A DNA stretch of 64,000 nucleotides from assembly GCF_013408535.1 (NCBI RefSeq), contig NZ_JACBZA010000001.1:4238850-4302849 (forward strand), read 5' to 3'. The notes below the pieces were generated by a model that made no database searches, had not been told where the DNA came from, and was given only the letters and a program-made list of their open reading frames with translations. Below, piece after piece: positions 48,494-64,000 of the stretch (its first letter is position 1; every line of letters starts with the position of its first letter). This DNA comes from Actinopolymorpha cephalotaxi (lineage in GTDB: Bacteria > Actinomycetota > Actinomycetes > Propionibacteriales > Actinopolymorphaceae). The position numbers and the translations under genes are program-made.

Positions 48494-49444
48494 CTACCTG
48501 CGGACGCGGGAGTACACCGCTCCAGCCAGGTCGCGGACGAACCTCGATGGGCGGCGGTTCGACAATCCCATCGATCGCGCTGCACGCTGCGTGAACTCAT
48601 CTGCACCCGCGCGCCAGAACCACGAGTCGCGGTCCGTCGCCAACGAATACATCTCGGCGAACCCGCGATCCTTCTCGGCGGGCAGATGCCAAAGCGTCAA
48701 CTCGGGCTCACAGCCATCGACCGTGCGGTGACGGGCCGCAGTCCAGATCCGACGCACAAACGGCGACAGATTCACTACGGGCACACCCCGCAATGCGAAA
48801 GCCATGATGTGCTCCTCGGTCGTGAACCTCGACTCGTGGCGCTCGTAACGATCCAGCGATAGCCGCCATGCCGACTCGGCGCGATCGATCAGAGTCGGAG
48901 CGAGCCCGGCAGGCACGACGTAACACTCGCCACCGAAGTGCTGGGGAGGAGAGTCTGTCGCCTCACCGAGCTCGGTGTGCAGTTCGGCGGCCTGCCTTCG
49001 CGTCAACCCGTTCACATCATGGTCCACGGGATAGCTCAACGGGAGCGCTCCGACCGCATCCCCACACGCCGCACGCATGTCACCCAGAGGCCGGACGCAC
49101 AGCACGTCCGGATCGACATAGAGAACCTGCTTGGCCGCGGCTGGCTGGCCCAGCGCGTCGAGCATGTAGAGCGACGCCGCGAAACTCCTGTTGAACCCCG
49201 CAGGTGGCTCGTGAGCGAATGGCTCCAACTGCTCCGATACGCCGAGGCCATGCAACTGCCGTGCGAACTCCTCGGGCGCCGTATGGTTGGTCACAAGGAT
49301 CAGATCGACGTCCGGATTCCAGCGCCGCACCGACGCGAACGTCACCACCATTGCCCGGTAATAGGTCGCCAAGTGATTGTCCGCCCTGATGTTCGGGCTC
49401 TGCTCGGCTGACGCGCGGACAAAGGGGATGACTATGGAGATCAC
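48494..49444 (-). CDS. GT-A fold glycosyltransferase-like protein
   Basis: A 316-residue protein beginning with a S-I-V-I-P-F strand and containing V-L-Y-V-D-P-D-V-L-C, a D-x-D-type metal/nucleotide-sugar site in the style of family 8 and related transferases. H-F-G-G-E-C-Y and a late L-W-H-L-P match the acceptor part of such enzymes. No TM segment, so cytoplasmic or peripheral. It reads leftward after the flavin monooxygenase (54-base gap). TAAGGT lies 8 bases before GTG 49444, so it may have its own leaderless promoter. It likely adds a sugar in the nearby glycan pathway. Confidence 0.7.
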   Translation of the reverse strand: MISIVIPFVRASAEQSPNIRADNHLATYYRAMVVTFASVRRWNPDVDLILVTNHTAPEEFARQLHGLGVSEQLEPFAHEPPAGFNRSFAASLYMLDALGQPAAAKQVLYVDPDVLCVRPLGDMRAACGDAVGALPLSYPVDHDVNGLTRRQAAELHTELGEATDSPPQHFGGECYVVPAGLAPTLIDRAESAWRLSLDRYERHESRFTTEEHIMAFALRGVPVVNLSPFVRRIWTAARHRTVDGCEPELTLWHLPAEKDRGFAEMYSLATDRDSWFWRAGADEFTQRAARSMGLSNRRPSRFVRDLAGAVYSRVRR

Positions 49445-49452
49445 GGAAGCTG

Positions 49453-49458
49453 ACCTTA
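49453..49458 (-). promoter_or_regulatory. -10 box near the start of the GT-A glycosyltransferase gene
   Basis: On the minus strand TAAGGT ends 8 bases before GTG 49444. The same AAGG could serve as a distant ribosome site. Confidence 0.4.
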
Positions 49459-49498
49459 GTCGCTGATCCCCCGTCGACTCCGGACGGCGGATCGACCC

Positions 49499-50767
49499 TC
49501 ACACATTCTGCCGTACGACGTTCCACGACGGACGGCTGTTGAGCGCGTGTACGTCCATGTCGCTGAGCCGCCGCTGCGCCTCGCGCATGGTGCCGAGCTC
49601 GTCCGGAGTCAGCACGTCGGTGATGTCGTCGAACCCCTCGGGCGCGCGTTCGGTGACCAGCGCGATGGTCGCCTCCATGGGCAGCTCGCGCTGGGCGAGC
49701 ACGAGTTCGGAGGTGGCCGGTCTGCGCTCGGCTTCGTACGCCGCCAGCCCAGCAACCGGGTCGGCGGCCACAGCCAGCTCCCTCGCCAGCACCCGGGCGT
49801 CCACCACGGCCTGCGAGCCGCCGTTGGAGCCCACGGGGTACATCGGGTGCGCGGCGTCCCCGAGCAGCGTGACCCGGCCGGTCCCCCAGCTGGGCAAGGG
49901 GTCCTTGTCCACCATCGGGTGCTCCAGGATCCGTTCCGTACCTGAGATGATCGAGGCGATGTCCGGGCTGGTAAGCCGCCAGCCGCCGAAGTGCGGGAGT
50001 ACGTCCTCCAGCCGTCCTCGCCGGGACAGGTCCGCGTCCGGGACCGGGCCCGGGGCGGCGAGCGTCACCTCGGCCACCCAGTTGAGCAGCGCTCTCCCCT
50101 GGGCCCGAGCGGCGCGGGCCGACACGGGGTAGACCACGAACTTCACCGACCGGTTGGAGCCGGCGACGAGCATCGTGGCGCCGTTGAGGTACGACTCACC
50201 CTCCACCGTCCCTCGCCACACCCGGATCCCGCTCCACAGCAGCGGCCCGTCGCCGGGGTGCAGCTGCGCGCGGACGGTCGAGTGGAGGCCGTCCGCGCCG
50301 ACGAGGACGTCGCCCGTCCGCGGCACCCGCTCCCCCGTCCGTACGTCACGCAGCAGAGCCGTGACGCCGGCGTCGCCCTGCTCGAAGTCCTCCAGGACCA
50401 GCCCGGTCGAGATGCCGCCCAGGCGTTCGCGTACGCGTTCGAGGAGCATCATCTGCAGCTCACCGCGGTGGATGGAGTACTGCGGCCAGTCGTAACCTGC
50501 GAACCGCCCCCGAGGGATCGCCACGATCGTGCCGCCGAACCGGTCGGTGTACACCATCCGGCTGGTCGGGATGCCGAGGTCGGCAAGCGCCTCGCCCAGG
50601 CCGAGTTCGACGAGCTCGCGGACGGCGTGTGGCTGAAGGTTGATGCCCACGCCGAGCGGCCGGGGAACCACAACGGACTCGACGACCTCGCAGTCGACAC
50701 CTGCCGCGTGCAGGCTCAGCGCAGCGGTCAGTCCGCCGATCCCGCCCCCGACGATCAGTACCTTCAT
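49499..50767 (-). CDS. FAD-dependent monooxygenase (PhzS/salicylate-hydroxylase-like)
   Basis: A 422-residue class A flavoprotein hydroxylase. G-G-G-I-G-G-L binds FAD (7-13), V-G-A-D-G-L-H-S-T-V-R is the D-G motif, and L-L-G-D-A-A-H-P-M-Y-P is the G-D motif. G-V-G-I-N-L-Q-P-H-A-V resembles PhzS-like flavin-dependent oxidoreductases. It would hydroxylate an aromatic substrate using NAD(P)H and O2. Its start lies 16 bases after the stop of the BY-kinase gene, so they may be co-transcribed, but no aromatic biosynthesis gene is nearby and its role in a glycan locus is unclear. Confidence 0.87.
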   Translation of the reverse strand: MKVLIVGGGIGGLTAALSLHAAGVDCEVVESVVVPRPLGVGINLQPHAVRELVELGLGEALADLGIPTSRMVYTDRFGGTIVAIPRGRFAGYDWPQYSIHRGELQMMLLERVRERLGGISTGLVLEDFEQGDAGVTALLRDVRTGERVPRTGDVLVGADGLHSTVRAQLHPGDGPLLWSGIRVWRGTVEGESYLNGATMLVAGSNRSVKFVVYPVSARAARAQGRALLNWVAEVTLAAPGPVPDADLSRRGRLEDVLPHFGGWRLTSPDIASIISGTERILEHPMVDKDPLPSWGTGRVTLLGDAAHPMYPVGSNGGSQAVVDARVLARELAVAADPVAGLAAYEAERRPATSELVLAQRELPMEATIALVTERAPEGFDDITDVLTPDELGTMREAQRRLSDMDVHALNSRPSWNVVRQNV

Positions 50768-50783: not shown

Positions 50784-52397
50784 TCAGCTCAGACGGTTGG
50801 CGCGGCGCCGACCCTCGTAGGTGCCGGCCGGTTCGACCGCACCCTGGTTGTACCGGGCCGCGCCGTTGGTGTGCGCGGCGTCGTTGGCGTGCGGGGCCGC
50901 ACCGCCGTTGGAGGGTGGACCGGCGGCCCCCGGCTGGACGAGAGTTGAGTCCGGGACCGCGTCGGGGTGATAGGTGTACGTCATGCTGGCTTCGCTTCGC
51001 GGACACCAGTTCAGGATGGTGCCGGTGAGCCTGCCATGCACGGAGGTGAGGCGTTCCACCCCGGCACGTACCTGCTCTCGGGTGGTCCTGCCGTACCGGA
51101 CGACCATGAGGGCTCCGTCGGCCTGGCTGGCAAGGATGGTCGCGTCGGCGACCGGCAACAGAGGCGGCGCGTCGATGAGCACGACGTCAAACGCCCGACG
51201 CAGATCTCTGAGTACGTCTGACATCGCCCGGGACTGGAACAGTTGGACCGGGTCCGGTGGCAGACCCCCACTGGCAAGAACCGCAAGGCCCGCGTCGCCC
51301 CACTCCTGAATGGCATCGGACAGTGCCGCCTGACCAATGAGGACCGTGGTCAAGCCAACTGCCTGCTCCAATCCCAACGTGGAAGCTACTTTCGGACGGC
51401 GCAGGTCGCCGTCGACCAGGAGGACGTGCTTACCGGATTGGGCCAGCGAGATCGCGAGATCGGACGCGGTGGTGGTCTTACCATCACCTTCGACCGCACT
51501 AGTGATGACGAACACCTTGCTCGGCTGGTCCACGTCGACGAACGTAAGGCTGGTCCGCAGGACACGGAACTGCTCGACCCGCGGCGCAGAGCGCCCGGCG
51601 GAGGCGATGGTGTACCTCTTGTCCACGTTCGGATCGAAGCCGACCGAACCCAGCACCGGCGCAGCGGCCAGAGCTGCGAGTTCCTCCGCCTGGCGCACCG
51701 AGGTGTCGAGGCTTTCCCGCAGAGCGGCGGCGCCGATTCCGAGCAGGAGTCCGAGGACCGCTGCGAGCCCTAGGTTCCGCACCGGCTGCGGCGAAACAGG
51801 GCTGCTCGTGGTGTCCGGCGTGCCGAGGACGCTCGTCGTGATCGGCGAGCCGGACTTCTTCGACGGAGCCTCAATCTGCTCGACGAAGGTCTTGAACTGG
51901 TCGGCGTACGCCTTCGCGATTCGCTCTGCCCGGCCAGGGCTCGGGTCGGTCACGGTCACGGAAAGGATAACCGTGTTCGGTACGACACTGGCGGTAACGT
52001 GCTTTTGAAGTGCGGACGGGCTCTCGTGCAGACCGAGCGCGTGCACGACTCGCTCCGCAACCTCCGGGCCGGTCAGCAGGTCGGCGTAGGACGCGGCCCG
52101 CTGCTCCGAGAACAGCCCGCCCTGATACGCAGCGGTGGTGTTCGTCTCGGGCGTGGAGACGAACAGGCGGATCGTGGAGGCGTACTGCGGAGTCGTGAGG
52201 AAGGTGACGACGGCCGCGGCAACAACGGCGACGAGGACGCCGGGGATCAGCCACCGCCAGCGGCGGCGGAGCACCTTGAGGTAGTCGCGCAGGTTCACTG
52301 AGTCACTTTCGTTGTCGCCGGTCTCCTCGGTCCACTGCTCGTCCATGGCCGGCGCTGTCCCGCGCGGCGACGAGGCCCGAGGCGTGGCTCCCATCAT
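50784..52397 (-). CDS. Polysaccharide co-polymerase / tyrosine autokinase (Wzz + BY-kinase)
   Basis: A 537-residue fusion controlling polysaccharide chain length and export. The N-terminal Wzz part has TM1 near 52-72, an external loop and TM2 near 212-228. The cytoplasmic BY-kinase domain follows, with Walker A G-D-G-K-T-T (about 300), Walker A' L-L-V-D-G-D-L-R-R-P and Walker B V-V-L-I-D-A-P-P. The C-terminal tail is long, Asn/Ala/Gly-rich and has only a few spread Tyr (T-Y-T-Y, R-Y-N-Q, T-Y-E-G) rather than a dense Tyr cluster. No cognate phosphatase gene is seen. It is divergent from the glycan operon and presumably serves its product. Confidence 0.9.
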   Translation of the reverse strand: MMGATPRASSPRGTAPAMDEQWTEETGDNESDSVNLRDYLKVLRRRWRWLIPGVLVAVVAAAVVTFLTTPQYASTIRLFVSTPETNTTAAYQGGLFSEQRAASYADLLTGPEVAERVVHALGLHESPSALQKHVTASVVPNTVILSVTVTDPSPGRAERIAKAYADQFKTFVEQIEAPSKKSGSPITTSVLGTPDTTSSPVSPQPVRNLGLAAVLGLLLGIGAAALRESLDTSVRQAEELAALAAAPVLGSVGFDPNVDKRYTIASAGRSAPRVEQFRVLRTSLTFVDVDQPSKVFVITSAVEGDGKTTTASDLAISLAQSGKHVLLVDGDLRRPKVASTLGLEQAVGLTTVLIGQAALSDAIQEWGDAGLAVLASGGLPPDPVQLFQSRAMSDVLRDLRRAFDVVLIDAPPLLPVADATILASQADGALMVVRYGRTTREQVRAGVERLTSVHGRLTGTILNWCPRSEASMTYTYHPDAVPDSTLVQPGAAGPPSNGGAAPHANDAAHTNGAARYNQGAVEPAGTYEGRRRANRLS

Positions 52398-52513: not shown

Positions 52514-54436
52514 GTGACGGGCCGTGTCGAGCCCGTCTTGCGTCGCCACCGACTCGTGGTGCTGGCTCTGTGCGATGGCGTCGCCTGGCTGTTGGCGATG
52601 GCAACGTTCTCGGTCCTGCGCGCGAGCGTCGGAGCGCCCGGCGGTGTGACACCGTGGATGGGTGCGCTCGCACTTGGGCTGATCGCCGCCGTGTTGCAGG
52701 TCAGCTTCGGCTGGGTGGTGCGGCTGCACCACGGGCGAGCCGCGGTCGGCAGCTTCGAGGAGATGATCCTTCTTGGCGGGGTAACCGTGTCCGTCGGGCT
52801 AGTGGCCGCGGTACTCAACGCACTACTCTCGCCGCCGCTGGTGCCTCGGACGGTTCCGGTCGGCGCGTCGTTCATGGCGATGGCCCTGGTGGCCTGGCTG
52901 CGCGCCACCTGGCGACGGTTGCATGAACACGAGTACCGCACAGCGGAACGGACCGACGGAATGACGCCGGTCCTGATCTTCGGCGCCGGTGATGGTGGCC
53001 GTCAGCTCGTCGACTCGATGCTCCGGGACCCCAGCGCCGGCTGGTGGCCGGTCGGCCTACTCGACGACCGACTCAACTTGCGACATCGCCGGGTGCGTGG
53101 CATTCCGGTTTTGGGCACCGGCGAGGACCTTCCGCGGGCGGTCGCGGAGACCGGATGCCGAACGCTCGTCGTCGCGATTCCTAGCGCGAGTGCCGAACTG
53201 CTGCGAACCATGGAGCGCCGCGCGGCAAGTCTCAACATCGATCTGAAGGTGCTGCCGAGCCTCGGCGAACTGCTGGACCGGCGGGTCGCGGTGTCCGATA
53301 TCCGCGACCTACAGATGAGCGACCTACTCGGCCGGCACCAGATCGACACCGATGTGGCATCTGTTGCGGACTACCTGACCGGACGGGTCGTGCTGGTGAC
53401 GGGCGCCGGCGGGTCGATCGGGTCAGAGCTCTGCCGGCAGATCTGGAGGTATGCACCGGCCGAACTCCTCATGCTCGACCGGGACGAGTCGGCTCTGCAC
53501 GCCGTCCAGTTGTCGATTCATGGACGCGCGATGCTCGACTCCCCCGACCTGGTGCTGGCCGACATCCGAGACACCGAACGGATCCTTCAGGTATTCGAGG
53601 AACGACGTCCGGATGTCGTGTTCCACGCCGCGGCGCTCAAGCACCTGTCGATGCTGGAGCAGTACCCGGCTGAGGCGGTGAGGACCAACGTCTGGGGCAC
53701 CCATGCGGTGCTCGAGGCTGCCAAACGCACAGGTGTGAGCCGGTTCGTGAACATCTCCACGGACAAGGCCGCCAACCCCTGCAGCGTTCTCGGCTACACG
53801 AAGCGCCTGGCGGAGGGACTCACGGCCACAGTCGCGCGCGAGGCCAGCGGCACCTTTCTCAGTGTGCGGTTCGGCAACGTACTCGGCAGCCGGGGTTCGG
53901 TATTGACGGCGTTCACGTCCCAGATCGAGGCCGGTGGGCCGGTTACAGTGACCGATCCCAAGGTGACGCGCTACTTCATGACCGTGCAGGAAGCCGTCCA
54001 GCTGGTGATCCAGGCGGCTGCGATCGGGCGTGACGGTGAAGCCCTCGTGCTCGACATGGGCAAGCCGGTCTCCATCGATGACGTCGCCCGCAACCTGATC
54101 GACATGTCCGGCAAGCAGATCGAGGTCGTATACACGGGCCTGCGCGAAGGCGAGAAGCTGCACGAGGAGCTCTTCGGGGACGGCGAGCCAGACCATCGTC
54201 CCGTGCATCCGCTGGTGTCGCACATCTCCGTACCGGCCGTACGGCCCGCCGACGTCTACTCCGTGGACCTGTGGTCGAGGCGTGGTCAGGTGACCGACGC
54301 GCTGAGGGACATCTGCGCGCACATGGTCGGTGAGGTCGCCCATCAACCCGTACGTTCTCCGCGCTCGGGACAGCCTGGCAGACCACGGCAGTCTGAATCC
54401 GAGGAACTGCCGACTTGGAGGAGGAGCCGTACCTGA
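52514..54436 (+). CDS. Membrane-bound nucleotide-sugar 4,6-dehydratase (WbpM/PglF/FlaA1-like)
   Basis: A 640-residue protein with four N-terminal TM helices, a Rossmann-like CoA-binding domain (F-G-A-G-D-G-G) and a C-terminal extended SDR (V-T-G-A-G-G-S-I-G). This is the layout of WbpM/PglF, which convert UDP-GlcNAc to the 4-keto-6-deoxy sugar, the entry to D-QuiNAc and D-FucNAc. I-S-T-D-K-A is present. The M-x-x-x-K catalytic pair of the family appears as L-G-Y-T-K (Leu426, Lys430), so Met is replaced by Leu. GTG 52514 has GGGGAG seven bases upstream. It is first in the rightward glycan operon. Confidence 0.88.
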   Translation: MTGRVEPVLRRHRLVVLALCDGVAWLLAMATFSVLRASVGAPGGVTPWMGALALGLIAAVLQVSFGWVVRLHHGRAAVGSFEEMILLGGVTVSVGLVAAVLNALLSPPLVPRTVPVGASFMAMALVAWLRATWRRLHEHEYRTAERTDGMTPVLIFGAGDGGRQLVDSMLRDPSAGWWPVGLLDDRLNLRHRRVRGIPVLGTGEDLPRAVAETGCRTLVVAIPSASAELLRTMERRAASLNIDLKVLPSLGELLDRRVAVSDIRDLQMSDLLGRHQIDTDVASVADYLTGRVVLVTGAGGSIGSELCRQIWRYAPAELLMLDRDESALHAVQLSIHGRAMLDSPDLVLADIRDTERILQVFEERRPDVVFHAAALKHLSMLEQYPAEAVRTNVWGTHAVLEAAKRTGVSRFVNISTDKAANPCSVLGYTKRLAEGLTATVAREASGTFLSVRFGNVLGSRGSVLTAFTSQIEAGGPVTVTDPKVTRYFMTVQEAVQLVIQAAAIGRDGEALVLDMGKPVSIDDVARNLIDMSGKQIEVVYTGLREGEKLHEELFGDGEPDHRPVHPLVSHISVPAVRPADVYSVDLWSRRGQVTDALRDICAHMVGEVAHQPVRSPRSGQPGRPRQSESEELPTWRRSRT

Positions 54437-54528
54437 GCGCGAATCTGCCTGACGAATCTTGATCGTCACACGTCTGGCTGTGCCCCTCGGGCGATCAGCC
54501 ACTGAACCTGCACCGAGGGAGGACCTCC

Positions 54529-55644
54529 GTGACCATGCCGGCAGTAGTGCTGGCGGCTGCCTTCGCAAGCCTAGGGTTGCAGGGCGTCCTATTGCCCGTG
54601 CTTCGACGGTACGTCGTCGATATACCCAACAACCGCTCATCGCATGCCATGCCGACCGCCCGCGGAGGCGGGCTCGCGGTCGTCGCCGGCATCTGGCTCG
54701 GGATCGTAGCTGGGTATCTGGCTGCGGCGCCCGTCCCATGGTCCGTTGTCGTGATGGCGCTGGCTCTGTCCGCGGCACTCGGGCTGGCGGACGACATGTG
54801 GACGCTGGGAGCTTTGCCCCGGCTCGGAATCCAACTGGTGCTGGGGTTGAGCCTTGCGCTGTGGATGCTTGAGACCAGGACTGCCCTGAGCGGGATCAGC
54901 CTCGTTCTCGCCGCCGCAGTAGCTACGATCTGGCTGGCGGGCTTCACCAACGCCTTCAACTTCATGGACGGCGTGAACGGGATCTCCGCGCTCAACGCCA
55001 TAGTGGCCGGCGCCTGGTATGCGTACGTTGGCTGGCACTGGAGTGTCGACAACCTGACGACGCTCGGCCTCGCCGTCGCCGGGGCGGCTGCAGGCTTCCT
55101 GCCCTGGAACTTTCCCAAAGCTCGCGTCTTCCTCGGCGACGTAGGGAGTTACGCCATCGGGATGGCGCTTGCGGGTCTTGCTCTGTGGGCAGCCGCTGCA
55201 GGCGTACCGCTCTGGTCGGCGTTGGCACCGCTGCTGGTGTATGTCGTCGACACGAGCTGGACCTTGACGAGACGCGTCGCGTCCGGTCAGCCGTGGAAGC
55301 AGGCGCATCGAGACCACATATATCAGCGGCTCGTGGCCGGCGGATGGAGCCACGCACGGTCCGCGATGGTGTCGGCCTTCGCTGCGGTTGGGTGTTGCGC
55401 CGCGGCATTGGTCACCGAGACTGTCGGACCAATTGTTGGTGTGCTTCTTCTGGCGATCGGCGCCGGGTGCTATCTGTTGCTGCCTCAGACCATCCACGGG
55501 GACTCAGCATCAGCCCGACTCCAGGCGCCCGGCCGGAGGCACGCCGCCGAGGGCGCCGTCGTGGCGCCCAGAAATCCATCGAGGGCCGGCCGAACCGTCC
55601 AGCCTCGTCCGCATCCGGCCACGCATGAATGGGTGAGCGAGTGA
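54529..55644 (+). CDS. Polyprenyl-phosphate sugar-1-phosphate transferase (WecA/WbpL/MraY family)
   Basis: A 371-residue membrane enzyme with about ten TM helices that should start a lipid-linked glycan by moving a sugar-1-phosphate to undecaprenyl phosphate. Family motifs are S-S-H-x-x-P-T-A-R-G-G-G, L-A-D-D in loop 2, N-F-M-D-G-V-N-G in loop 3, F-L-G-D-V-G-S, and H-R-D-H-I-Y-Q-R-L in loop 5. A roughly 50-residue hydrophilic C-terminal tail is extra. AGGGAGG precedes GTG 54529. Beside WbpM-like and WbpV-like genes it most resembles WbpL-type enzymes that use UDP-D-FucNAc/QuiNAc, but the donor must be tested. Confidence 0.9.
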   Translation: MTMPAVVLAAAFASLGLQGVLLPVLRRYVVDIPNNRSSHAMPTARGGGLAVVAGIWLGIVAGYLAAAPVPWSVVVMALALSAALGLADDMWTLGALPRLGIQLVLGLSLALWMLETRTALSGISLVLAAAVATIWLAGFTNAFNFMDGVNGISALNAIVAGAWYAYVGWHWSVDNLTTLGLAVAGAAAGFLPWNFPKARVFLGDVGSYAIGMALAGLALWAAAAGVPLWSALAPLLVYVVDTSWTLTRRVASGQPWKQAHRDHIYQRLVAGGWSHARSAMVSAFAAVGCCAAALVTETVGPIVGVLLLAIGAGCYLLLPQTIHGDSASARLQAPGRRHAAEGAVVAPRNPSRAGRTVQPRPHPATHEWVSE

Positions 55645-56909
55645 GGATCGGATTCATCACCCAGTGGTACAGCCCCGAGCCTGGCGCCGCGGCGCATCCG
55701 ACCGCAGTTGCAAACGCACTAGTTGACGCGGGCCATGAGGTGACCGCCCTGACCTCGTTCCCGAACTACCCAACCGGTCGCTTCCTTGATCCCCGACCTC
55801 GCAGACCACTCCGGCGCGAGACGGTCGACGGGGTTCGCCTGACGAGGGTGTTGCACTACCCGAGCCATGACGACAGCGCCGCGAAGCGGATCGCGAGCTA
55901 CATGTCCTTCGCCGCTTCCACGACAGCTTTTACCGCAGCACTGGCCGGGTGCGACGTTTGCCTCGTCTACTGCACGCCGGCGACGGTAGCCATTCCCGCA
56001 GTCGTCCTCAACGCGCTTGCGGGGGTGCCATTCGTCTTGTACGTGCAGGACCTGTGGCCAGACTCGGTAACTGCGAGTGGGTTCGTGAGCAACCCACGCG
56101 GAAACCACTTCATGGCCCGCCAGCTTTCGCGCTATTGCAACGGTATCTACCGCCGCGCCAGCGCTGTCGTGGGCATCTCACCAGCCATGAGCGACCTGCT
56201 CCGGGCGCGAGGTGTGGACGAGCACAAAGTCGCCACCGTCTACAACTGGGTGGACGAAAGTGTTTTCAAACCAGCACCGCGCTCGAACAGTGACTCCTCG
56301 CGATTCGAACTCATGTACGCGGGCGGCATTGGCGAGGTTCAAGGCCTCGAAAATGCCATCGAGGCGATGAACGCTTTGCGTGACCGCGATGACGTGCGGC
56401 TGACTTTCGTCGGCCGGGGTGTTGCGGAGCCGGGACTGCGCCGCCGGGTCGCCGAACTTGGCCTAGAGCATTCAGTCCGATTCTGTCCTCCACGGACTAC
56501 GGCTGACATGGCCGGGGTCATCGCCTCGGCGGACGCGCAGCTCGTGTCATTGCGGGGTGACTCGTTTCTGGCCACGACTCTGCCCAGCAAGCTCCAAGCG
56601 TCAATGGCGTGTGGTGCTCCGATCATCTGTGCTGCGCCTGGTGCAGCCGCACAGCTCGTAGCGCAGGCCCACGCCGGGATCGCAGTGGAGCCGGACCGAC
56701 CATCCGCGTTGGCGGGCGCGATCGCCGGAATGGCAGCTGCTTCAAAGGAGAAGCGCGCGGTCATGGGTCGCAATGGTCTCGCGTACTACAACCGCAACCT
56801 GTCCCGATCTGTTGGAGCCGCACGCCTGGCGGACATCCTTGCCAGGGCCTGCGCAGATCGTCGTCCAAACATTCTCAAGCGGACGACCCGGGAGAGTTGG
56901 TATGGCTGA
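55641..56909 (+). CDS. GT4 glycosyltransferase, WbuB-like (candidate L-FucNAc transferase)
   Basis: A 422-residue GT-B fold transferase. I-T-Q-W-Y-S-P-E-P-G-A at the N-terminus, V-Q-D-L-W-P-D-S in the linker and the C-terminal donor site (Y-A-G-G-I-G-E-V-Q-G-L, then L-P-S-K-L-Q-A-S-M-A-C-G-A-P) match the WbuB group, whose E. coli O26 member is assigned as an L-FucNAc transferase. GTG 55641 overlaps the upstream stop (GTGA); ATG 55629 is an alternative four codons earlier. The nearby CapEFG genes make the L-FucNAc assignment more likely. Confidence 0.85.
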   Translation: MRIGFITQWYSPEPGAAAHPTAVANALVDAGHEVTALTSFPNYPTGRFLDPRPRRPLRRETVDGVRLTRVLHYPSHDDSAAKRIASYMSFAASTTAFTAALAGCDVCLVYCTPATVAIPAVVLNALAGVPFVLYVQDLWPDSVTASGFVSNPRGNHFMARQLSRYCNGIYRRASAVVGISPAMSDLLRARGVDEHKVATVYNWVDESVFKPAPRSNSDSSRFELMYAGGIGEVQGLENAIEAMNALRDRDDVRLTFVGRGVAEPGLRRRVAELGLEHSVRFCPPRTTADMAGVIASADAQLVSLRGDSFLATTLPSKLQASMACGAPIICAAPGAAAQLVAQAHAGIAVEPDRPSALAGAIAGMAAASKEKRAVMGRNGLAYYNRNLSRSVGAARLADILARACADRRPNILKRTTRESWYG

Positions 56910-57894
56910 GGTAGCCGTGATCGGCGCGAGTGGCTTTGTCGGCGCTGCGATTTCGTCACAACTACGCAGGTCAGGATTCGATGTCCGCGAAGTGGCAGCG
57001 CCCCGAGTGGCCTTCAGCGGTGCCAACTGCGAAGCTCTGCTCATGCAGGCATCTCTCCGAGATGACCTGACTGAGGAACTCAGCCAGACAGTCGCCGGCG
57101 CGGACTGCGTGGTCAACGCTGCCGGAATCGCTGACGCGACGGGGGCGGACTGGCCTGCGCTGTGCGGGGCAAATGCGCTCCTCCCAATACTTGTACACCT
57201 CGCCTGCCGCGCCGCTGGAACGAAACGGTTCGTCCACGTAAGTTCGGCCGCCGTCCAAGGAAGAACCCGTCGGCTGGACGAGTCGACGCTGCGGTATCCC
57301 TTCTCTGCGTACTCCCGGTCGAAGGCGCTAGCTGAAGAGACCCTGGAGCGCATGGACTCCGGACCATCCACGGTGCTCTTCCGGCCGACCTCAGTCCATG
57401 GACCCAACCGCTCGGTCACACGACGCCTGGCCCGGTTGGCGTCCTCCAAGGCCACCTCCGTGGCTGGGAAGGGCGAGAATCCAACACCGCAGGTCCAAGT
57501 GGACAACGTCGGTGCAGCCGTCGCGTTCGTCGCCACCTGTACGGACACGCCGCCGGAAATCATCCTGCAGCCGTGGGAAGGGCTAACTACGGGAGAGCTG
57601 CTCCGAATCCTGGGGGGTCGAGAGCCGCGTCACGTTCCAACCAGTGTTGCCCGCAGCCTGGTCCTCGCAGCCAGATGGGCTGGAACACATCATCTCCAGA
57701 TCGCAGGCCAGGCTCGACGACTCGAGATGGTGTGGTTCGGCCAGGACCAAGACAGTGGGTGGCTGACAGCGAAGGGCTGGCGTCCTCCCGTCGGTCCGGA
57801 GGGTTGGCAGGAGCTCGCGGCAGCCGTGGCGGCAGTGCGCGCCGGTGAAGTTCGGACAGCAGAAGCAGTGAGTTCGAAGGGGGCAGGGTCGTGA
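56902..57894 (+). CDS. NAD-dependent sugar reductase/epimerase (WbpV/WbjF-like extended SDR)
   Basis: A 330-residue extended SDR. G-A-S-G-F-V-G binds the nucleotide and the catalytic set is S-S-A in H-V-S-S-A-A with Y-S-R-S-K. C-terminal H-L-Q-I-A and D-x-G-W-x-x-x-K-G-W segments resemble WbpV/WbjF-type proteins found beside WbpM and WbpL. It could reduce the 4-keto intermediate from the membrane dehydratase to UDP-D-FucNAc or UDP-D-QuiNAc. It overlaps the upstream gene by 8 bases with GGAG at good distance, and its stop overlaps the CapE start (GTGA). Confidence 0.8.
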   Translation: MAEVAVIGASGFVGAAISSQLRRSGFDVREVAAPRVAFSGANCEALLMQASLRDDLTEELSQTVAGADCVVNAAGIADATGADWPALCGANALLPILVHLACRAAGTKRFVHVSSAAVQGRTRRLDESTLRYPFSAYSRSKALAEETLERMDSGPSTVLFRPTSVHGPNRSVTRRLARLASSKATSVAGKGENPTPQVQVDNVGAAVAFVATCTDTPPEIILQPWEGLTTGELLRILGGREPRHVPTSVARSLVLAARWAGTHHLQIAGQARRLEMVWFGQDQDSGWLTAKGWRPPVGPEGWQELAAAVAAVRAGEVRTAEAVSSKGAGS

Positions 57895-58952
57895 CCGACC
57901 TCAACGAGGGCCGGCAGCAAGCGCAGTCACCGGTGGACTCCGGATGTGTACTCGTGACGGGTGGTACCGGTTCGTTCGGGTCGACCATGGTGCGCAGGTT
58001 GCTGCGTACCGGAGTGCACGAGGTCCGGGTGCTGAGCCGCGACGAGGCGAAGCAGGACGACATGCGCCGCCGGCTTTCGGACGACCGACTGCGGTTCTTC
58101 CTTGGAGACGTCCGGGACTTCGACAGCGTGCGGGACGCGGTGCGCGGGGCCGACTTCGTCTTCCACGCCGCCGCACTGAAGCAGGTACCGAGCTGCGAGT
58201 TCTTCCCCACCCAGGCAGTGCGCACCAACATCCTGGGCAGCTCCAACGTCGTCGAGGCCGCGACCGCAGGGGGGGTCAGGTCAGTCGTCTGCCTGAGCAC
58301 GGACAAGGCCGTCTACCCGGTCAACGCGATGGGCATGTCGAAGGCGCTGATGGAAAAGGTCGCGCAGGCTGCAGCCCGCAACAGCGCAGGCTCGGATACA
58401 ACTATCTCGGTGACCCGCTACGGGAACGTGATGTACTCCCGGGGGTCGGTGATCCCGCTCTTCGTCGAACAGCTCCGCAACGGCCAGCCGCTCACGATCA
58501 CCGAGCCGCAGATGACGCGGTTCCTGATGAGCCTGGAGGAGTCCGTGGAGCTGGTGGAGTACGCCTTCGCCAACGCCGACAACGGCGATCTCTTCGTCCG
58601 TAAGGCGCCGGCCTGCACCGTCGAGGTCCTGGCTCGCGCCGTGGCCAAGCTCCTGAAGGTCGACGAGCCCGAGATACGGGTGATCGGCACCCGTCACGGA
58701 GAAAAGATGTACGAGACCCTGCTGAGCCGTGAGGAGCGGGTGCGCGCCTTGGACAAGGGCGACTACTTCCGCGTGCCGCTGGACGCGCGTTCCCTGCAGT
58801 ACGAACTCTTCTTCGACGAGGGGATGCCAGAGGAGCGGGAGACAGACGACTACACATCGCACAACACCCGCCGGCTCGATGTCGACGAGGTGCAGACCCT
58901 TCTGCTGACCCTGCCCGAGATGCAGCGCGTACTCCAGGGGGCGGCGGCATGA
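57891..58952 (+). CDS. capE: UDP-GlcNAc 4,6-dehydratase/5-epimerase, CapE/FnlA/WbjB type
   Basis: A 353-residue soluble SDR. T-G-G-T-G-S-F-G binds NADP and the active site has N-A-M-G-M-S-K, with Met147 and Lys151 in the M-x-x-x-K form. Y-G-N-V-x-x-S-R-G and G-T-R-H-G-E-K-M-Y-E-T-L-L are diagnostic of the CapE/FnlA group. It catalyses the first step from UDP-GlcNAc toward UDP-L-FucNAc (dehydration with C5 epimerisation). Followed without gaps by CapF and CapG, which fixes the pathway. Confidence 0.92.
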   Translation: MTDLNEGRQQAQSPVDSGCVLVTGGTGSFGSTMVRRLLRTGVHEVRVLSRDEAKQDDMRRRLSDDRLRFFLGDVRDFDSVRDAVRGADFVFHAAALKQVPSCEFFPTQAVRTNILGSSNVVEAATAGGVRSVVCLSTDKAVYPVNAMGMSKALMEKVAQAAARNSAGSDTTISVTRYGNVMYSRGSVIPLFVEQLRNGQPLTITEPQMTRFLMSLEESVELVEYAFANADNGDLFVRKAPACTVEVLARAVAKLLKVDEPEIRVIGTRHGEKMYETLLSREERVRALDKGDYFRVPLDARSLQYELFFDEGMPEERETDDYTSHNTRRLDVDEVQTLLLTLPEMQRVLQGAAA

Positions 58953-60067
58953 AGGTTGCGGTGACCGGAGCCGATGGCTTCCTCGGCTGGCATGTCCGCA
59001 GCCGCCTACGGGCACTCACCGAGCACGAGGTCGTGCCTGTGAACCGGTCGGCGATGCCAGGCCTCGCGAAGGTCGTTCGCGACGCCGACGCGGTGATCCA
59101 CCTGGCCGGGATCAACAGGTCGGAAACCGAGGACCTCCGTGACGGCAACGTCGAACTGGCCCGGGCCGTGGGGGATGCGGTCATCCGTGCCGAGCGCCCG
59201 GTGCGGGTGGTCTACGCGAACAGCATCCAGGCAGGCAACGGAACGTCTTACGGCGACGGCAAGTCTGCCGCGGCGGACACGCTGAGGAAGGCGGCGTCCG
59301 AGGCCGGTGCGGGCATCGTCGATGTACGGCTGCCGAATCTCTTCGGTGAGCACGGCCGGCCGCACTACAACTCCTTCGTGGCAACCTTCTGCCACGAGGT
59401 CGCAAGTGGTCGGACGCCGGAGGTCAACGATCGCGAGGTCTCCTTGCTGCACGCGCAGGACGCCGCCCGCGTCCTCGTCGACGCCTGTGGTCCGACTGAT
59501 GCTGCCGAGGAACTGACCCCGGTGGGTGAGCCACACCGCGTCAGCGGGGTCCTGGCCACCCTGCGGGAGTTCCATACGCTCTACAGCACGGGCGACATTC
59601 CGCCGCTGGCCAACAAGTTCGACGTGGACCTGTTCAACACCTACCGCGCGGCGCTGTTCCCCGATCACTACCCGATCAGGTTCCCGAAGCGGGCCGACGC
59701 CCGTGGCGAGCTCGTGGAGTGCGTACGAGCGCACGGCGGAGCAGGTCAGACCTTCGTCTCGAGCACGGTGCCGGGAATCACTCGCGGGGAGCACTTCCAC
59801 CTCGGCAAGGTCGAGCGGTTCGTCGTACTCCGCGGTGAGGCCGAGATCGCACTGCGGCGTCTCTTCTCCGACGAGGTCGTCCGTTTCCGCGTGTCAGGCG
59901 ACTCCCCTGCTGCCATCGACATGCCCACGATGTGGGTGCACAACATCACTAACATCGGCGGTGGCGAACTCGTGACGCTGTTCTGGACGAACTCGGTCTT
60001 CGACCCGAACAACCCCGACACATACGCCGAGCCGGTGGCTCCCGGAGCCGAGGAGAAGCGCGGATGA
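58949..60067 (+). CDS. capF: UDP-L-FucNAc pathway reductase/epimerase with cupin domain, CapF/FnlB/WbjC type
   Basis: A 372-residue two-domain enzyme. The N-terminal SDR has G-A-D-G-F-L-G and Y-G-D-G-K (Tyr101, Lys105). The C-terminal cupin domain has G-E-H-F-H (Glu281, His282, His284) and later W-V-H-N-I, consistent with the zinc site of CapF. In S. aureus CapF the cupin epimerises C3 and the SDR reduces C4, giving UDP-6-deoxy-L-talosamine-type product. ATGA overlap with capE and with capG. Confidence 0.92.
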   Translation: MKVAVTGADGFLGWHVRSRLRALTEHEVVPVNRSAMPGLAKVVRDADAVIHLAGINRSETEDLRDGNVELARAVGDAVIRAERPVRVVYANSIQAGNGTSYGDGKSAAADTLRKAASEAGAGIVDVRLPNLFGEHGRPHYNSFVATFCHEVASGRTPEVNDREVSLLHAQDAARVLVDACGPTDAAEELTPVGEPHRVSGVLATLREFHTLYSTGDIPPLANKFDVDLFNTYRAALFPDHYPIRFPKRADARGELVECVRAHGGAGQTFVSSTVPGITRGEHFHLGKVERFVVLRGEAEIALRRLFSDEVVRFRVSGDSPAAIDMPTMWVHNITNIGGGELVTLFWTNSVFDPNNPDTYAEPVAPGAEEKRG

Positions 60068-61203
60068 CGAAGGTCATGACGATCGTGGGCACCCGCCCGG
60101 AGATCATCCGGCTCTCCCGAGTGATCGCCACGCTGGACCGGACGATGGACCACGTTCTCGTCCACACCGGCCAGAACTACGACTACGCCCTCAACCAGGT
60201 GTTCTTCGACGACCTGGAGTTGCGCGCTCCCGATCACTACCTCGACGTCGACACCTCGTCGCTTGGCCACGTCCTGGGCGAGACGCTGATCAAAACTGAG
60301 GAGGTGCTCCGCGCCGAGCGGCCGGACGCCGTGCTCATCCTGGGCGACACGAACAGCTGCATCGCGGCACTGATGGCCAAGCGAATGCACATCCCCGTCT
60401 ACCACATGGAGGCGGGCAACCGGTGCTTCGATGAAAACGTCCCGGAGGAGACCAACCGGCGGCTCGTCGACCACGTGGCCGACTTCAACCTCGTCTACAC
60501 CGAGCACGCCCGGCGGAACCTCCTTGCTGAAGGCCTCCAGCCGAGGCGAATCCTGCTGACCGGTTCGCCAATGCGTGAGGTCCTGGACCACTACCGCCCT
60601 CGGATCGAGGCGTCCGACGTGGTAGCCCGACTGGGACTTCACGACGGCGGCTACTTCCTCGTCAGCGCGCACCGCGAAGAGAACGTCGACGACCCGGAGC
60701 GGATTCGCATGCTCCTGGAGTGCATCGTGGATGTCCGCGACCACTGGAAGCTGCCGGTGCTCGTGTCCACTCACCCGCGCACGCGCAAGCGGCTCGAGAA
60801 CCTCGCCGAGTGGGACGCGCCGGAAGGTGTGGATTTCCACGAGCCCTTCGGCTTCCTCGACTACGTGAAGCTCCAGACCAACGCGGCGTGCGTGCTCTCC
60901 GACTCCGGGACGATCTCGGAAGAGTCGGCGATCCTGGGCTTCCCGGCAGTGACCCTGCGGGAATCCATCGAACGACCCGAAGCGCTCGACGCCGGCTCGA
61001 TCGTGATGACCGGACTGTCATCCGCTGACGTCAGGCACGCAATCCAGCTTCAGATGGAAGTGGCACGGCAGCCCAACACCCACCAGATTCCATTCGAGTA
61101 CGCCGTCGAGGACTGCGCACATCGCACGTCGATGTGGATCCTGTCCACCTGCGCCCGACACGGCACGTGGTCTGGCCTGCGCAGCGCCAGGGGCCCGAAG
61201 TGA
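60064..61203 (+). CDS. capG: UDP-sugar C2-epimerase (WecB-like), CapG/FnlC/WbjD type
   Basis: A 379-residue GT-B fold epimerase. V-G-T-R-P-E at the start, H-T-G-Q-N-Y-D, G-D-T-N-S, A-G-N-R-C-F-D-E-x-V-P-E-E, and S-D-S-G-T-I-S-E-E-S are the family motifs. A-G-N-R in place of A-G-L-R distinguishes the CapG/FnlC group from standard WecB. It performs the last C2 epimerisation to UDP-N-acetyl-L-fucosamine. ATG 60064 overlaps the capF stop and the stop overlaps the next GTG. Confidence 0.92.
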   Translation: MTKVMTIVGTRPEIIRLSRVIATLDRTMDHVLVHTGQNYDYALNQVFFDDLELRAPDHYLDVDTSSLGHVLGETLIKTEEVLRAERPDAVLILGDTNSCIAALMAKRMHIPVYHMEAGNRCFDENVPEETNRRLVDHVADFNLVYTEHARRNLLAEGLQPRRILLTGSPMREVLDHYRPRIEASDVVARLGLHDGGYFLVSAHREENVDDPERIRMLLECIVDVRDHWKLPVLVSTHPRTRKRLENLAEWDAPEGVDFHEPFGFLDYVKLQTNAACVLSDSGTISEESAILGFPAVTLRESIERPEALDAGSIVMTGLSSADVRHAIQLQMEVARQPNTHQIPFEYAVEDCAHRTSMWILSTCARHGTWSGLRSARGPK

Positions 61204-62483
61204 GTACTACGCCGTCTGCGCCGAGCCCGGTCTGGCTGGTTGTCGACGCCCGAAGCGTCCACGCGGTGCGATGGGCAATGCATCTGACCAGAGCGGGCGT
61301 CACCGGTCTCGCGTTCTCCACCCGCCGGCTCGACGCTACACAACGGTCAACCTGGGCGTCGTCGTGCGCGGGATTCGAGCTCGTGGAACCGACCGACCTG
61401 TGGAACCGGAGCCGCAGTCTGCTCCTGGAAGGGACCGGCAGGCGCGGCCTCGAGGCCATTTCTCGCAGGCTCCTCGCTCGTTCGGCCAACGCTCGCCGCG
61501 CGGACGCGGGTGCCGGGGGTAGCGCGCACCGAGTTGAAAACACCCTCGACCTGTGGGCGACTCGCAGGCTGTCCCGCCGTCTCGCCAGGCTGGCATCCAG
61601 GCAGCGCCCTGCACTCGTTCACGCGCTGCGGGTACCGTTCGAGGGAATCGCCGCCACCATGACGCGGTTGGATGCCCCTACGATCGTGAGTACGTGGGGG
61701 CAGGACTTCCAGGGACAGGCGAAGGGGTCGGTTCTCGACCACGCCCGCCACGCGTTGCGGTCCTGCGACGGCTTCATGGCGGACAATCACGCGGATGTAC
61801 GTCTCGCAAAGGAGTTCGGACTTCCCGAGACGACCCCGAGTCTCGTCGTGCCCGGGAACATGGGGCTCGCTACCGCAGATTTGCGCGCCGCGCTGGCTGC
61901 GTCCTCGACCTCCTCCAAAGGGGACCGTGCCCCCTTGGTGGTCTTTCCCCGAGGCGCACGCTCCTATATCGACTACGAGACGTTCGTCGACGCCATCCCC
62001 CGGGTGCTCGAGCTACGTCCCGACGCCCGGGTCGTCTGCATCGGCCTCGGCAGGAACCAGCAGGCTGCACAGAAGGCCGTCTCGTTCGGCAGTTCGGTGA
62101 CCCTGATGGAGCAGGTTCCGCAAAAGGACCTATGGCGGCTCTTCGCCGAAGCGGCTGTCGTGGTCTCGCCCGGCAGGACGGACGGTCTGCCGAACTCCGT
62201 CATAGAGGCGGCCGCGCTCGGAGCGGTCGTGGTCGTCTACGAACTGGTGTCACTGGTGGAGGTGCTGGAGCCTCCGATGCTCGGATACACCGTTCCCCAG
62301 GGGGACGAAGGAGCCATGGCGAAAGCCATCGTCGATGCCCTCGACACCCCCGCCGAGAGGCGGAACCAGAACATCGAAGTAACCATCGACCGGTTCGAAG
62401 CACAGACGTCACTAAGAAGAGTGCTGGACTTCTATGGCCAAGTCGCGCCCTCGATGAGCGGACGTGAGGGCCGGGAATCATGA
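61200..62483 (+). CDS. GT4-like glycosyltransferase
   Basis: A 427-residue GT-B protein. The N-terminal half is divergent. The donor half has S-T-W-G-Q-D-F, F-P-R-G, and S-P-G-R-T-D-G-L-P-N-S-V-I-E-A-A-A-L-G, the E-x(7)-E-type block of family 4. It begins with GTG overlapping the capG stop. It would extend the lipid-linked repeat unit in the cytoplasm. Donor and acceptor unknown. Confidence 0.82.
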   Translation: MSTTPSAPSPVWLVVDARSVHAVRWAMHLTRAGVTGLAFSTRRLDATQRSTWASSCAGFELVEPTDLWNRSRSLLLEGTGRRGLEAISRRLLARSANARRADAGAGGSAHRVENTLDLWATRRLSRRLARLASRQRPALVHALRVPFEGIAATMTRLDAPTIVSTWGQDFQGQAKGSVLDHARHALRSCDGFMADNHADVRLAKEFGLPETTPSLVVPGNMGLATADLRAALAASSTSSKGDRAPLVVFPRGARSYIDYETFVDAIPRVLELRPDARVVCIGLGRNQQAAQKAVSFGSSVTLMEQVPQKDLWRLFAEAAVVVSPGRTDGLPNSVIEAAALGAVVVVYELVSLVEVLEPPMLGYTVPQGDEGAMAKAIVDALDTPAERRNQNIEVTIDRFEAQTSLRRVLDFYGQVAPSMSGREGRES

Positions 62484-63592
62484 GCAGCCGATCCCCACAC
62501 GTGGCGATTGTGAGTTTGTGCGTAGCGCACTACCGGTTGCCGGTGTTCCATGAACTCGAACGGTCGGACGCGTTCCGCTTCTCCTTCTGGGCCGACACCG
62601 AGGGCACGGAGTCCGTCCTGACCGCGGGGCAGGGAGACCTCAAGGAGTTCGTGCGGCTCCGCAACCATTCCCACGGCAACTGGGTCTGGCAGTCTGGGCT
62701 GATCAGCAACCTCCTCCGCTCCAGGCCCGATGTGGTCATCTTCGTGGGGAGCGCCTACTACCTCTCGACCTGGATCGCGGCCCTGCTCGCACGCGCCCTT
62801 AACCGACCAGTGCTCTTCTGGACACAGGGCTGGTTGGCGGAGGAGACAGGCCTGAAAAGGCTCGTCCGCGTCTCGTTCTACCGTCTCGCGGACCGGTTGC
62901 TTCTGTACGGGCACCGCGCCGCGGACATCGGCGTCAAGATGGGTTTTCCCCGAGAGCGAATGACAGTCGTGTACAACAGCGTCGGGCGTCCTCGGCGCGA
63001 AGCTGTCGGAAAAAGTGAGACATCCTCTCGGCCGGGATCCTCGACAGAGGTGATCCTCGTATCCCGCCTCATCAAGGAGCGGGGTGTCGAGGTGCTGCTG
63101 CAGGCTGCCCGCCTGTTGGACGCGCAGGGTTCGAGAACAACCATCAACCTGATCGGCGACGGGCCGGAGGAAGAGCGGCTCAAGAAGCTCGCGAGCGACC
63201 TCGGAGTGGACGCGAAGTTCCATGGGCCCATCTACGACCAGAAGCTCCTGGACGAGGCCTATGAACGTGCCGACGTGTGCGTTTTGCCGGGCCGAGCTGG
63301 CCTGGCCGTCATCCAGAGCCTGCTGGCGCGGGTTCCAGTGGTCGCGCATTCCAACCTCGACGACCACATGCCCGAGGTGGAAGCGATCATGCCTGGGGTA
63401 ACCGGGGAGTTCTTCACGAAGGACGACCCAGCCGATCTGGCCAGGGCAATACTCCAATGCATCGAGAGGAAGAACGACCCACGTGTCGTCGATGTACGGG
63501 AGAAGGCTCTGGACACCGTGACGCGCCTGTACACGCCTGAGCATCAGGCGCAGGTCGTGGAACGCGTGTGCCGGGAGGTCGGCAGTGCCTGA
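62480..63592 (+). CDS. GT4 glycosyltransferase
   Basis: A 370-residue family 4 transferase. Y-R-L-P-V-F-H-E-L lies near the N-terminus, then W-T-Q-G-W-L, a V-V-Y-N-S-V linker, V-S-R-L-I-K-E-R-G-V-E-V-L-L and D-G-P-E-E-E in the donor domain, and P-G-R-A-G-L-A-V-I-Q-S-L where others have E-x(7)-E; the first Glu appears replaced by Ala or Gly. ATGA overlap upstream and an 8-base overlap with the next gene. Role: addition of a sugar in the same repeat unit. Confidence 0.85.
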   Translation: MSSRSPHVAIVSLCVAHYRLPVFHELERSDAFRFSFWADTEGTESVLTAGQGDLKEFVRLRNHSHGNWVWQSGLISNLLRSRPDVVIFVGSAYYLSTWIAALLARALNRPVLFWTQGWLAEETGLKRLVRVSFYRLADRLLLYGHRAADIGVKMGFPRERMTVVYNSVGRPRREAVGKSETSSRPGSSTEVILVSRLIKERGVEVLLQAARLLDAQGSRTTINLIGDGPEEERLKKLASDLGVDAKFHGPIYDQKLLDEAYERADVCVLPGRAGLAVIQSLLARVPVVAHSNLDDHMPEVEAIMPGVTGEFFTKDDPADLARAILQCIERKNDPRVVDVREKALDTVTRLYTPEHQAQVVERVCREVGSA

Positions 63593-64000
63593 TCGGGAGA
63601 CGAGCGACCGGGACCATCAGCGCGCGAGAGTCTATGGCGCTCATCGCGCACCCGACGGTCGCGGCGTTGGTGCGTTCGGTGACGCGAGGCTGATCAGCCT
63701 TACGAAATCGAGCGCCGCCCGAGCACTAGTGGGCACAGGCGCGGTCAATGCCCTTACGATGCTTCTCGGAATCGTAAGCAGCGTCGTCACCTCCCGGGGC
63801 CTTGGGCCCGAGGATCGTGGGATGCTCGTGTCCCTGCTGGTGTGGTCCCAAGCGGTGGCAACAATGTCGCTGGTCGGCGCCGACGAGGCCGTAATCTTTC
63901 AGTCCGGTGGTTCGTCGTCACGCGCGTGGACCCTCAGAGCGGCGGTAGCGCGCGACGCAGTCGTACAGGCCGCCCTCGGGTGCCTCGTCCTTCTGGGAGC
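63585..64000 (+). CDS. Wzx-like polysaccharide flippase, 5' part (continues past window)
   Basis: GTG 63585, with GGGAGG six bases upstream, opens a frame running off the right edge (138 full codons). After a hydrophilic N-terminus of about 50 residues come two TM helices with T-M-L-L-G-I-V-S-S-V-V-T-S-R-G-L-G-P-E-D-R-G, the opening typical of Wzx/MATE-type O-unit flippases. Position at the end of the glycan operon supports a role in moving the lipid-linked repeat unit across the membrane. Confidence 0.75.
   Translation, partial: MPDRETSDRDHQRARVYGAHRAPDGRGVGAFGDARLISLTKSSAARALVGTGAVNALTMLLGIVSSVVTSRGLGPEDRGMLVSLLVWSQAVATMSLVGADEAVIFQSGGSSSRAWTLRAAVARDAVVQAALGCLVLLG

Follow-up and report, generated by a model that had tools for sequence, protein, structure and literature searches.

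An exchangeable gene island in Actinopolymorpha cephalotaxi predicted to encode a heteropolysaccharide with L-FucNAc on a D-6-deoxy-HexNAc primer

The stretch analysed was a 64-kb window of the one-contig, 6.86-Mb genome of Actinopolymorpha cephalotaxi (positions 4238850-4302849); coordinates below are positions in this window, and those above 64000 are window-equivalent. An island at 50768-68989 in all likelihood encodes a Wzx/Wzy-type heteropolysaccharide with a 6-deoxy-N-acetyl-D-hexosamine (D-6-deoxy-HexNAc) primer and N-acetyl-L-fucosamine (L-FucNAc). Its core is a run of nine plus-strand genes (52514-63592) encoding a WbpM-like dehydratase, an initiator, a WbuB/WcaI-like glycosyltransferase (GT), a short-chain dehydrogenase/reductase (SDR), CapE, CapF, CapG and two further GTs; the first two genes were 92 bases apart and every later neighbouring pair overlapped by 4 to 16 bases. 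A model-made first-pass annotation of 52514-64000 had proposed an O-antigen-like locus here, and the genes it named proved real, being present in one orientation with strong family matches that were far beyond chance in profile searches of the window proteins. That annotation was partly supported: its outline was correct, its call on the reductase was not, and the system was less new for Gram-positive bacteria than had been thought. The features of the island were as follows, where UDP-GlcNAc is UDP-N-acetylglucosamine and the BY-kinase is a tyrosine kinase.

50784-52346, minus strand: Wzz plus BY-kinase chain-length/tyrosine kinase protein of 520 aa (PF02706 and PF13614), at the left end of the cassette
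52514-54436 (open frame from 52418), plus strand: WbpM/PglF-type membrane UDP-GlcNAc 4,6-dehydratase (PF02719 337 bits, PF13727)
54529-55644, plus strand: polytopic HexNAc-1-phosphate initiator (PNPT) of the WbpL class (PF00953 106 bits)
55629-56909, plus strand: WbuB/WbjE-like (WcaI-like) GT4 glycosyltransferase (NF007640 159 bits, under the cut-off of 276)
56902-57894, plus strand: SDR reductase of the SDRa family (PF01370 78 bits on a longer frame)
57891-58952, plus strand: CapE/FnlA UDP-GlcNAc 4,6-dehydratase/5-epimerase (TIGR04130 465 bits, cut-off 730)
58949-60067, plus strand: CapF/WbcJ reductase, SDR plus cupin (NF047837 244 bits, cut-off 500)
60064-61203, plus strand: CapG/FnlC UDP-HexNAc 2-epimerase (TIGR00236 253 bits, above the cut-off)
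61200-62483, plus strand: GT4-type glycosyltransferase (PF13692, PF00534)
62480-63592, plus strand: GT4-type glycosyltransferase, 44% identical to a GT of a second locus, locus B, described below (PF00534)
63585-64949, plus strand: Wzx-like flippase crossing the window end (PF13440)
about 65135-65872: FkbM methyltransferase (PF05050)
66321-67721: Wzy candidate, a polytopic protein of 466 aa (PF04932 17.4 bits, E 0.004, cut-off 31.7)
67756-68801, minus strand: transposase pieces closing the cassette on the right (transposase-type HTH/DDE matches; two adjoining reading frames, the larger of which was searched)

In the pathway proposed from these families, the WbpM-like enzyme would convert UDP-GlcNAc to a 4-keto-6-deoxy sugar, the SDRa reductase would turn this into UDP-D-FucNAc or UDP-D-QuiNAc (the N-acetylated D-fucosamine or D-quinovosamine), and the WbpL-class initiator would transfer this sugar as its 1-phosphate to undecaprenyl phosphate. 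UDP-L-FucNAc would be made by CapE, CapF and CapG together, and from it the WbuB-like GT, with specificity for the primer sugar, would add L-FucNAc. Two further GTs and the FkbM methyltransferase may complete a repeat of about four sugars, which Wzx would flip and a divergent Wzy would polymerise, with chain length under the control of the Wzz/BY-kinase protein and the chain tied to the wall by one of the seven LCP proteins of the genome, none of which is encoded close to the cassette. We infer all substrates, linkages, the sugar order and the attachment in this scheme.

The set of genes for UDP-L-FucNAc was complete, comprising three adjacent genes that were each nearest to the characterised member of their family. 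The best solved chain was 4j2o for CapE (445 bits, named UDP-GlcNAc 4,6-dehydratase/5-epimerase, followed by the CapE/Cap8E chain 3vvb at 398 bits), 2zkl (Cap5F) for CapF at 218 bits and 7ya2 (CapG) for CapG at 406 bits, and the YxxxK and cupin H.H....E residues were kept in CapF. CapG was scored only against the general wecB model TIGR00236, which it passed. Identities to the homologues in a Pseudomonas aeruginosa record (NZ_CP042268) were 59%, 32% and 54% for CapE, CapF and CapG, respectively; this record annotates products only, and the Wbj, WbpL and WbpM names and the O11 serotype used for it here are our own assumption. A search of the CapE DNA against E. coli genomes gave no match. As the first-pass annotation had it, CapEFG are predicted to make UDP-L-FucNAc.

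The WbpM-like protein contained an N-terminal membrane/CoA-binding part (PF13727) and a Polysacc_synt_2 domain (PF02719) with the STDK motif. Its best solved chain was 5bju at 244 bits, a 'WlaL protein' chain of the kind that we take to be PglF, and it has Leu at the position of Met in chain 5bju and Tyr in chain 5bjy. The initiator was 34.8% identical over 282 aa to the P. aeruginosa WbpL, and its C-terminal loop reads AHRDHIYQ, compared with AHRSHAYQ in the P. aeruginosa protein that occupies the WbpL position and HRTHAYQ in a Legionella PNPT, while the WecA-type motifs differ (HIHH in E. coli WecA and HLHH in the separate WecA-like gene of the Actinopolymorpha genome). The pattern HRxHxYQ occurred in 16 of 18 cluster PNPTs and had no match in the remaining two (G726 and G690). 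By its motif the initiator appears to be of the WbpL class and not WecA, and HRxHxYQ may be a marker of donor specificity. The earlier proposal that the WbpM-like product feeds an initiator of this kind is supported. The WecA-like gene of the genome was rejected as the cassette initiator, the cluster carrying its own PNPT. Four PF00953 matches were found in the whole genome. A second MraY-like gene was noted outside the cell-wall cluster (genome about 4538685-4539761), with SPIQFHF at the site of the MraY motif, usually a triple-histidine motif.

The label 'WbpV-like' for the reductase was rejected. The window SDR and the WbpV-type SDR of the relative G088 had 25% identity. Compared with the reductase of the P. 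aeruginosa O11-type block, the window SDR reached 28% over 186 aa (44 bits) and the G088 protein 42.8% (224 bits). A profile (A1) was made from ten cluster SDRs, including that of L139, with S114, Y137 and K141 invariant in the alignment. It identified at least 36 actinobacterial loci in named genomes (L107-L142, metagenome-assembled genomes included) at 37-53% identity, while among the best 80 of at least 169 confirmed loci, on which all SDRa locus counts rest, the matches elsewhere were partial, at 26-34%. Flanks of at least 6 kb on the left and 3 kb on the right were available for 31 of the 36 loci, five having too little, and among these both PNPT and WbpM lay within 7.5 kb of SDRa in 29 of 31. 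The exceptions were a Dietzia locus with PNPT only within this distance and Nocardioides sediminis with WbpM and a PF02397-type (PGT) initiator. CapF was within 7.5 kb at four of the 31 loci, and the 27 others all had PNPT. SDRa is thus best described, on present alignments, as a separate, apparently uncharacterised actinobacterial SDR family that travels with WbpM and an initiator regardless of L-FucNAc genes nearby. Since WbpM and PNPT accompanied it at 29 of 31 loci, the simplest reading is that SDRa would be the 4-reductase for the WbpM product; since it falls outside the WbpV family, its epimer, D-FucNAc or D-QuiNAc, cannot be read from the sequence. At loci of Arthrobacter, Kocuria, Rothia and others (L112-L142) the genes for WbpM, PNPT and SDRa stayed together, in most cases with no CapF inside 7.5 kb; these three genes are possibly the primer set of Micrococcaceae surface glycans. 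The product of SDRa would define the first sugar of the surface glycans in Arthrobacter, Kocuria, Rothia, Nocardioides and other genera with the family.

A second L-FucNAc locus, locus B, was located in the same genome at 2020515-2035942, with CapE, CapF, CapG and WbpM-like proteins 71%, 56%, 68% and 73% identical to the window versions, a WbuB-like GT (36% to the window GT) and two BY-kinases, to which the window Wzz/BY-kinase was 58% and 60% identical. Here PNPT and SDR are replaced by a PGT initiator (PF02397), an aminotransferase of the DegT type and a GNAT protein, and locus B was therefore rejected as a mere duplicate; by pathway knowledge its primer is predicted to be diacetyl-bacillosamine-like. 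Locus B was present in three genomes of the genus (G001, G002 and G004) with its main genes at 64-94% identity, and a related locus occurred in G003. No CapF match was found in G005. A 71-residue match to the C-terminal part of CapF was noted in G003 (C1:4201203-4201412), separate from the full CapF of that genome. Absence of FucNAc in cell-wall glycans had been offered as a refutation of the window pathway, but locus B also encodes CapEFG, so wall FucNAc would not test the window locus. The two paralogous systems in one genome allow a side-by-side comparison.

A CapF relative (E at most 1e-30) was carried by 11 of the 394 genomes searched in the class and by 53 of the 391 in the order, with the own genome included in both counts, and the idea that the L-FucNAc genes are unique to this genome was thereby rejected. 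The 57 CapF neighbourhoods examined (40 from the order list, three from the class list, two from the own genome and a further twelve) included 37 with a single initiator type and a single modifying enzyme, counted when matches lay at most 10.5 kb from CapF with DegT at no less than 45% identity and WbpV-type SDR above 90 bits, thresholds that exclude the 34% DegT of G491 and the weak SDR matches of G566 and G686. These 37 were divided into PNPT with SDR (13), PNPT with DegT (none), PGT with SDR (one, G648) and PGT with DegT (23), giving a Fisher p of 3.9e-9. The other 20 had both initiators with both enzymes (one, G020), both initiators with SDR (one, G509), DegT without an initiator (three), PNPT alone (three), PGT alone (one) or nothing (eleven).

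The tree of the second GT followed primer chemistry closely while those of CapE, CapF and CapG did so much less. Trees were built by a quick method. A WbuB-like match was present in 48 of the 57 neighbourhoods, and 43 of these with L130 and L132 gave a tree of 45 GTs; three were left out with no initiator in view (G282, G193 and G737) and two with matches of only 25-26% (G544 and G581). On this tree the PGT-type group (24 rows) took four changes and the PNPT-type group (20 rows) five, against shuffled means of 15.3 and 15.0, and none of 500 shuffles was as low. A comparison of all four proteins used 42 loci, dropping G052 and G690, where the CapE row or the CapF and CapG rows were missing, and G648, which had no A/B label. 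With this two-state label the GT tree took four changes (shuffled mean 14.0, lowest of 200 being 10), CapE eight (14.1, lowest 9), and CapF and CapG twelve and eleven (mean 14.1, lowest 9). When four primer chemistries were distinguished at 31 labelled loci (SDRa; WbpV-type SDR, resting in this set on the single row G088; DegT with GNAT; DegT with LbH), the GT tree took three changes, which is the minimum, while CapE took 10 and CapF and CapG 11 each (shuffled means 13.8-13.9, lowest 10, 11 and 10). Among the labels, the B of G479 and G602 was given for DegT alone, a PGT was also present in G020 and G509, G020 and G491 also had DegT/LbH-type matches, and G645 had an LbH match besides GNAT.

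Removal of near-copies and doubtful rows (G001, G002, G004, G610 and G020, with G088 also dropped from the three-state count) left 37 loci, 25 of them with three-state labels. The GT tree then took two changes, again the minimum, with none of 500 shuffles as low, and CapE, CapF and CapG took nine, nine and ten changes, reached in 156, 137 and 365 of 500 shuffles. With the two-state label the figures were four for the GT (none of 500), eight for CapE (7 of 500), nine for CapF (21 of 500) and ten for CapG (54 of 500, a weak signal). The window GT belonged to a supported group of seven GTs, of which six came from SDRa loci. The locus of G648 (L107, Nocardioides sediminis KCTC 19271) is a natural hybrid, in which SDRa occurs with a PGT initiator and the GT lies next to those of SDRa loci; because it adjoins the GT of the SDRa locus G509, the GT would appear to follow the sugar and not the initiator fold. 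These patterns suggest that the GT tracks the primer sugar, and the hybrid lends itself to testing which feature the GT recognises.

The window GT was 30.5% identical over 416 aa to its counterpart in the P. aeruginosa block, and WbjE has been cited as specific for UDP-L-FucNAc (PMC3628348). The window enzyme is named as the predicted transferase of L-FucNAc to the primer sugar, and addition of L-FucNAc had also been suggested for it in the first-pass annotation. We infer that the CapEFG donor set has been exchanged more freely and that the GT is tied to its acceptor, as expected of a second transferase, although the position of the GT gene beside the primer genes may contribute to the GT signal. 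On a broader model our judgement is evenly divided: CapEFG would be freely joined to either an SDRa-type or an aminotransferase/PGT primer set, the second GT, specific for the primer sugar, would carry the matching rule, and one genome holds both systems, with one cassette at a serotype-like exchange site. The acceptor of a WbuB/WbjE-type L-FucNAc transferase may then be predictable from its clade.

Several results weigh against the interpretation given above. CapE and CapF scored well under the NCBIfam equivalog cut-offs (465 of 730 and 244 of 500), the Wzy call was sub-threshold (17.4 bits against 31.7 for PF04932), and the best solved match of the SDRa profile was only MoeE5 at 61 bits. The Fisher value and the shuffles were uncorrected for relatedness, labels were assigned by hand and some reference proteins came from counted loci. 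With near-copies kept, CapE and CapF reached the lowest of 200 shuffles for the chemistry label, and CapE lay below all 200 for the A/B label. The GT of G668 (PGT with DegT) grouped among those of WbpV-type loci, and the GTs of SDRa loci split into two clades. An attempt to identify the acceptor by adding WbjE of P. aeruginosa to the GT tree was abandoned, since this protein formed a long branch with no firm place. In Acinetobacter baumannii PSgc5/24, wbpV and wbpL are thought to be without a role (PMC3726653), so that the presence of such genes does not prove their use.

The same observation on roleless wbpV and wbpL in WbpL-bearing clusters would fit an initiator that starts with GlcNAc in the WecA manner, as in the logic of E. 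coli O26, with the D-sugar of WbpM and SDRa added later or never; so would the relative G490, which has PNPT, a WbuB-like GT and CapEFG, and in which neither SDR nor WbpM was found in 20 kb. We consider this unlikely, since the initiator has the WbpL motif and not the HIHH of WecA, the genome has a separate WecA-like gene, SDRa and PNPT are also linked at the 27 loci without CapF, and the cassette showed no second initiator. A D-6-deoxy-HexNAc primer remains the reading preferred here.

The island occupied a site that differed among genomes of the genus. The 18.2 kb found here was absent from G002, where the stretches corresponding to 49496-50767 and 68990-73744 were only 229 bp apart, and from G004, where those corresponding to 49512-50767 and 68990-72360 were only 161 bp apart; the Wzz/BY-kinase gene fell inside the missing stretch. 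In G001 the same flanks enclosed 13.1 kb with a GDP-fucose-type cassette including, among other genes, a BY-kinase (39% identity; TIGR01007 153 bits, cut-off 108), a GT 28% identical to the WbuB-like GT, a GDP-mannose 4,6-dehydratase (514 bits, cut-off 415) and a GDP-L-fucose synthase (437 bits, cut-off 500). G003 had one flank gene in common in the stretch read. GC content at third codon positions was 0.55-0.87 in cassette genes (SDR 0.68, flippase 0.71, FkbM piece 0.55) and 0.85-0.93 in most genes of the flanks. The locus is an 18.2-kb insertion at an exchangeable, serotype-like site, with different or near-absent cassettes between the same flanks, and marks a glycan-cassette exchange site in this genus. 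The low values in the SDR, flippase and FkbM genes, the transposase pieces at the right end and the absence of the cassette from the corresponding site in G001, G002 and G004 could also indicate an imported island that is decayed or silent, with not all steps working and locus B alone supplying an L-FucNAc glycan, yet the reading frames of the pathway were intact and motifs were kept where examined, which makes this quite improbable.

A Wzz/BY-kinase and a Wzx-like flippase had been reported by the first-pass annotation and were both present, although the former lies just outside the 52514-64000 range it covered. Its statement that no Wzy was in view held for the window, while extension past 64000 gave the weak candidate at 66321-67721, with about nine hydrophobic stretches in a simple scan. 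The parts of a Wzx/Wzy locus were represented by an initiator, a Wzx-like protein, Wzz/BY-kinase and a Wzy candidate below threshold. A PHROGs search of two Wzy candidates and the flippase returned nothing useful. That the product is a protein decoration or a short oligosaccharide and no polymer would suit the weak Wzy candidate and the lack of an LCP gene in the cassette but is very improbable given the Wzz/BY-kinase and Wzx-like flippase in the cassette, followed by a polytopic protein of 466 aa.

Left of the island, a 316-aa protein (48494-49444, minus strand) had no Pfam match, and its YVDPDVLC stretch, judged by eye, may be a glycosyltransferase metal site. About 1.05 kb around its gene (48445-49495) was absent between collinear flanks in G002 and represents a separate small insertion. 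An Rfam scan of the window gave no match.

As far as literature searches go, four elements are new: SDRa as a family together with its linkage, a pair of parallel systems within a single genome, the congruence of GT and primer, and the exchange site. In the partial texts returned, no account of these features in Actinobacteria was found, though the results were mostly off topic and are weak evidence of absence; on FucNAc or QuiNAc in actinobacterial walls they likewise held nothing useful and were mostly off topic.

Among known systems, the Pseudomonas O11-type block was the likeness proposed earlier, and a gene-by-gene comparison with P. aeruginosa NZ_CP042268 bore it out: the same seven gene types occur in one block, with WbpM 37% identical over 497 aa. 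The genes stand in another order, the two reductases are not orthologous (28% over 186 aa), and the window cassette, in its actinobacterial host, also has a BY-kinase, an FkbM protein and two more GTs. E. coli O26 logic has a WecA/GlcNAc start, and this analogy, also made earlier, fits less well because the initiator carries the WbpL and not the WecA motif. The O11 block comprises WbjB-D, homologues of CapE, CapF and CapG, with WbjE, WbjF, WbpL and WbpM. The block has been described (PMC3628348), and its repeat contains a-L-FucNAc-(1->3)-b-D-FucNAc (PMC12865246), a disaccharide of L- and D-FucNAc shared with Staphylococcus aureus CP5/CP8 (PMC12865246, PMC6441080). In the latter, L-FucNAc is added to a D-FucNAc primer under BY-kinase control, and the CapD, N, M, E, F, G and L steps were reconstituted in vitro (PMC6441080). 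The window system would likewise place L-FucNAc on a D-sugar primer, and with this precedent its occurrence in a Gram-positive bacterium is no novelty in itself. S. aureus CapM has a single re-entrant membrane part (PMC6441080), whereas the window initiator is a polytopic PNPT, and no genes for N-acetylmannosaminuronic acid (ManNAcA) were seen in the window cassette. The same six-gene logic is found in A. baumannii KL8/KL9 and PSgc5/24/44 as fnlABC-gtr-qnr(wbpV)-itrB(wbpL), a block whose similarity to the O11 module has been noted (PMC3628348, PMC3726653); its reductase is of the WbpV type, in a wbpV/wbpL pair thought to be a remnant, unlike the SDRa of the window. A further parallel is the Pdeg/Preq pair of Bacillus cereus, in which a 4,6-dehydratase and a reductase unlike WbpV lead to UDP-D-QuiNAc in a Gram-positive bacterium, with no mention of L-FucNAc genes in the excerpt of that report (PMC4514872).

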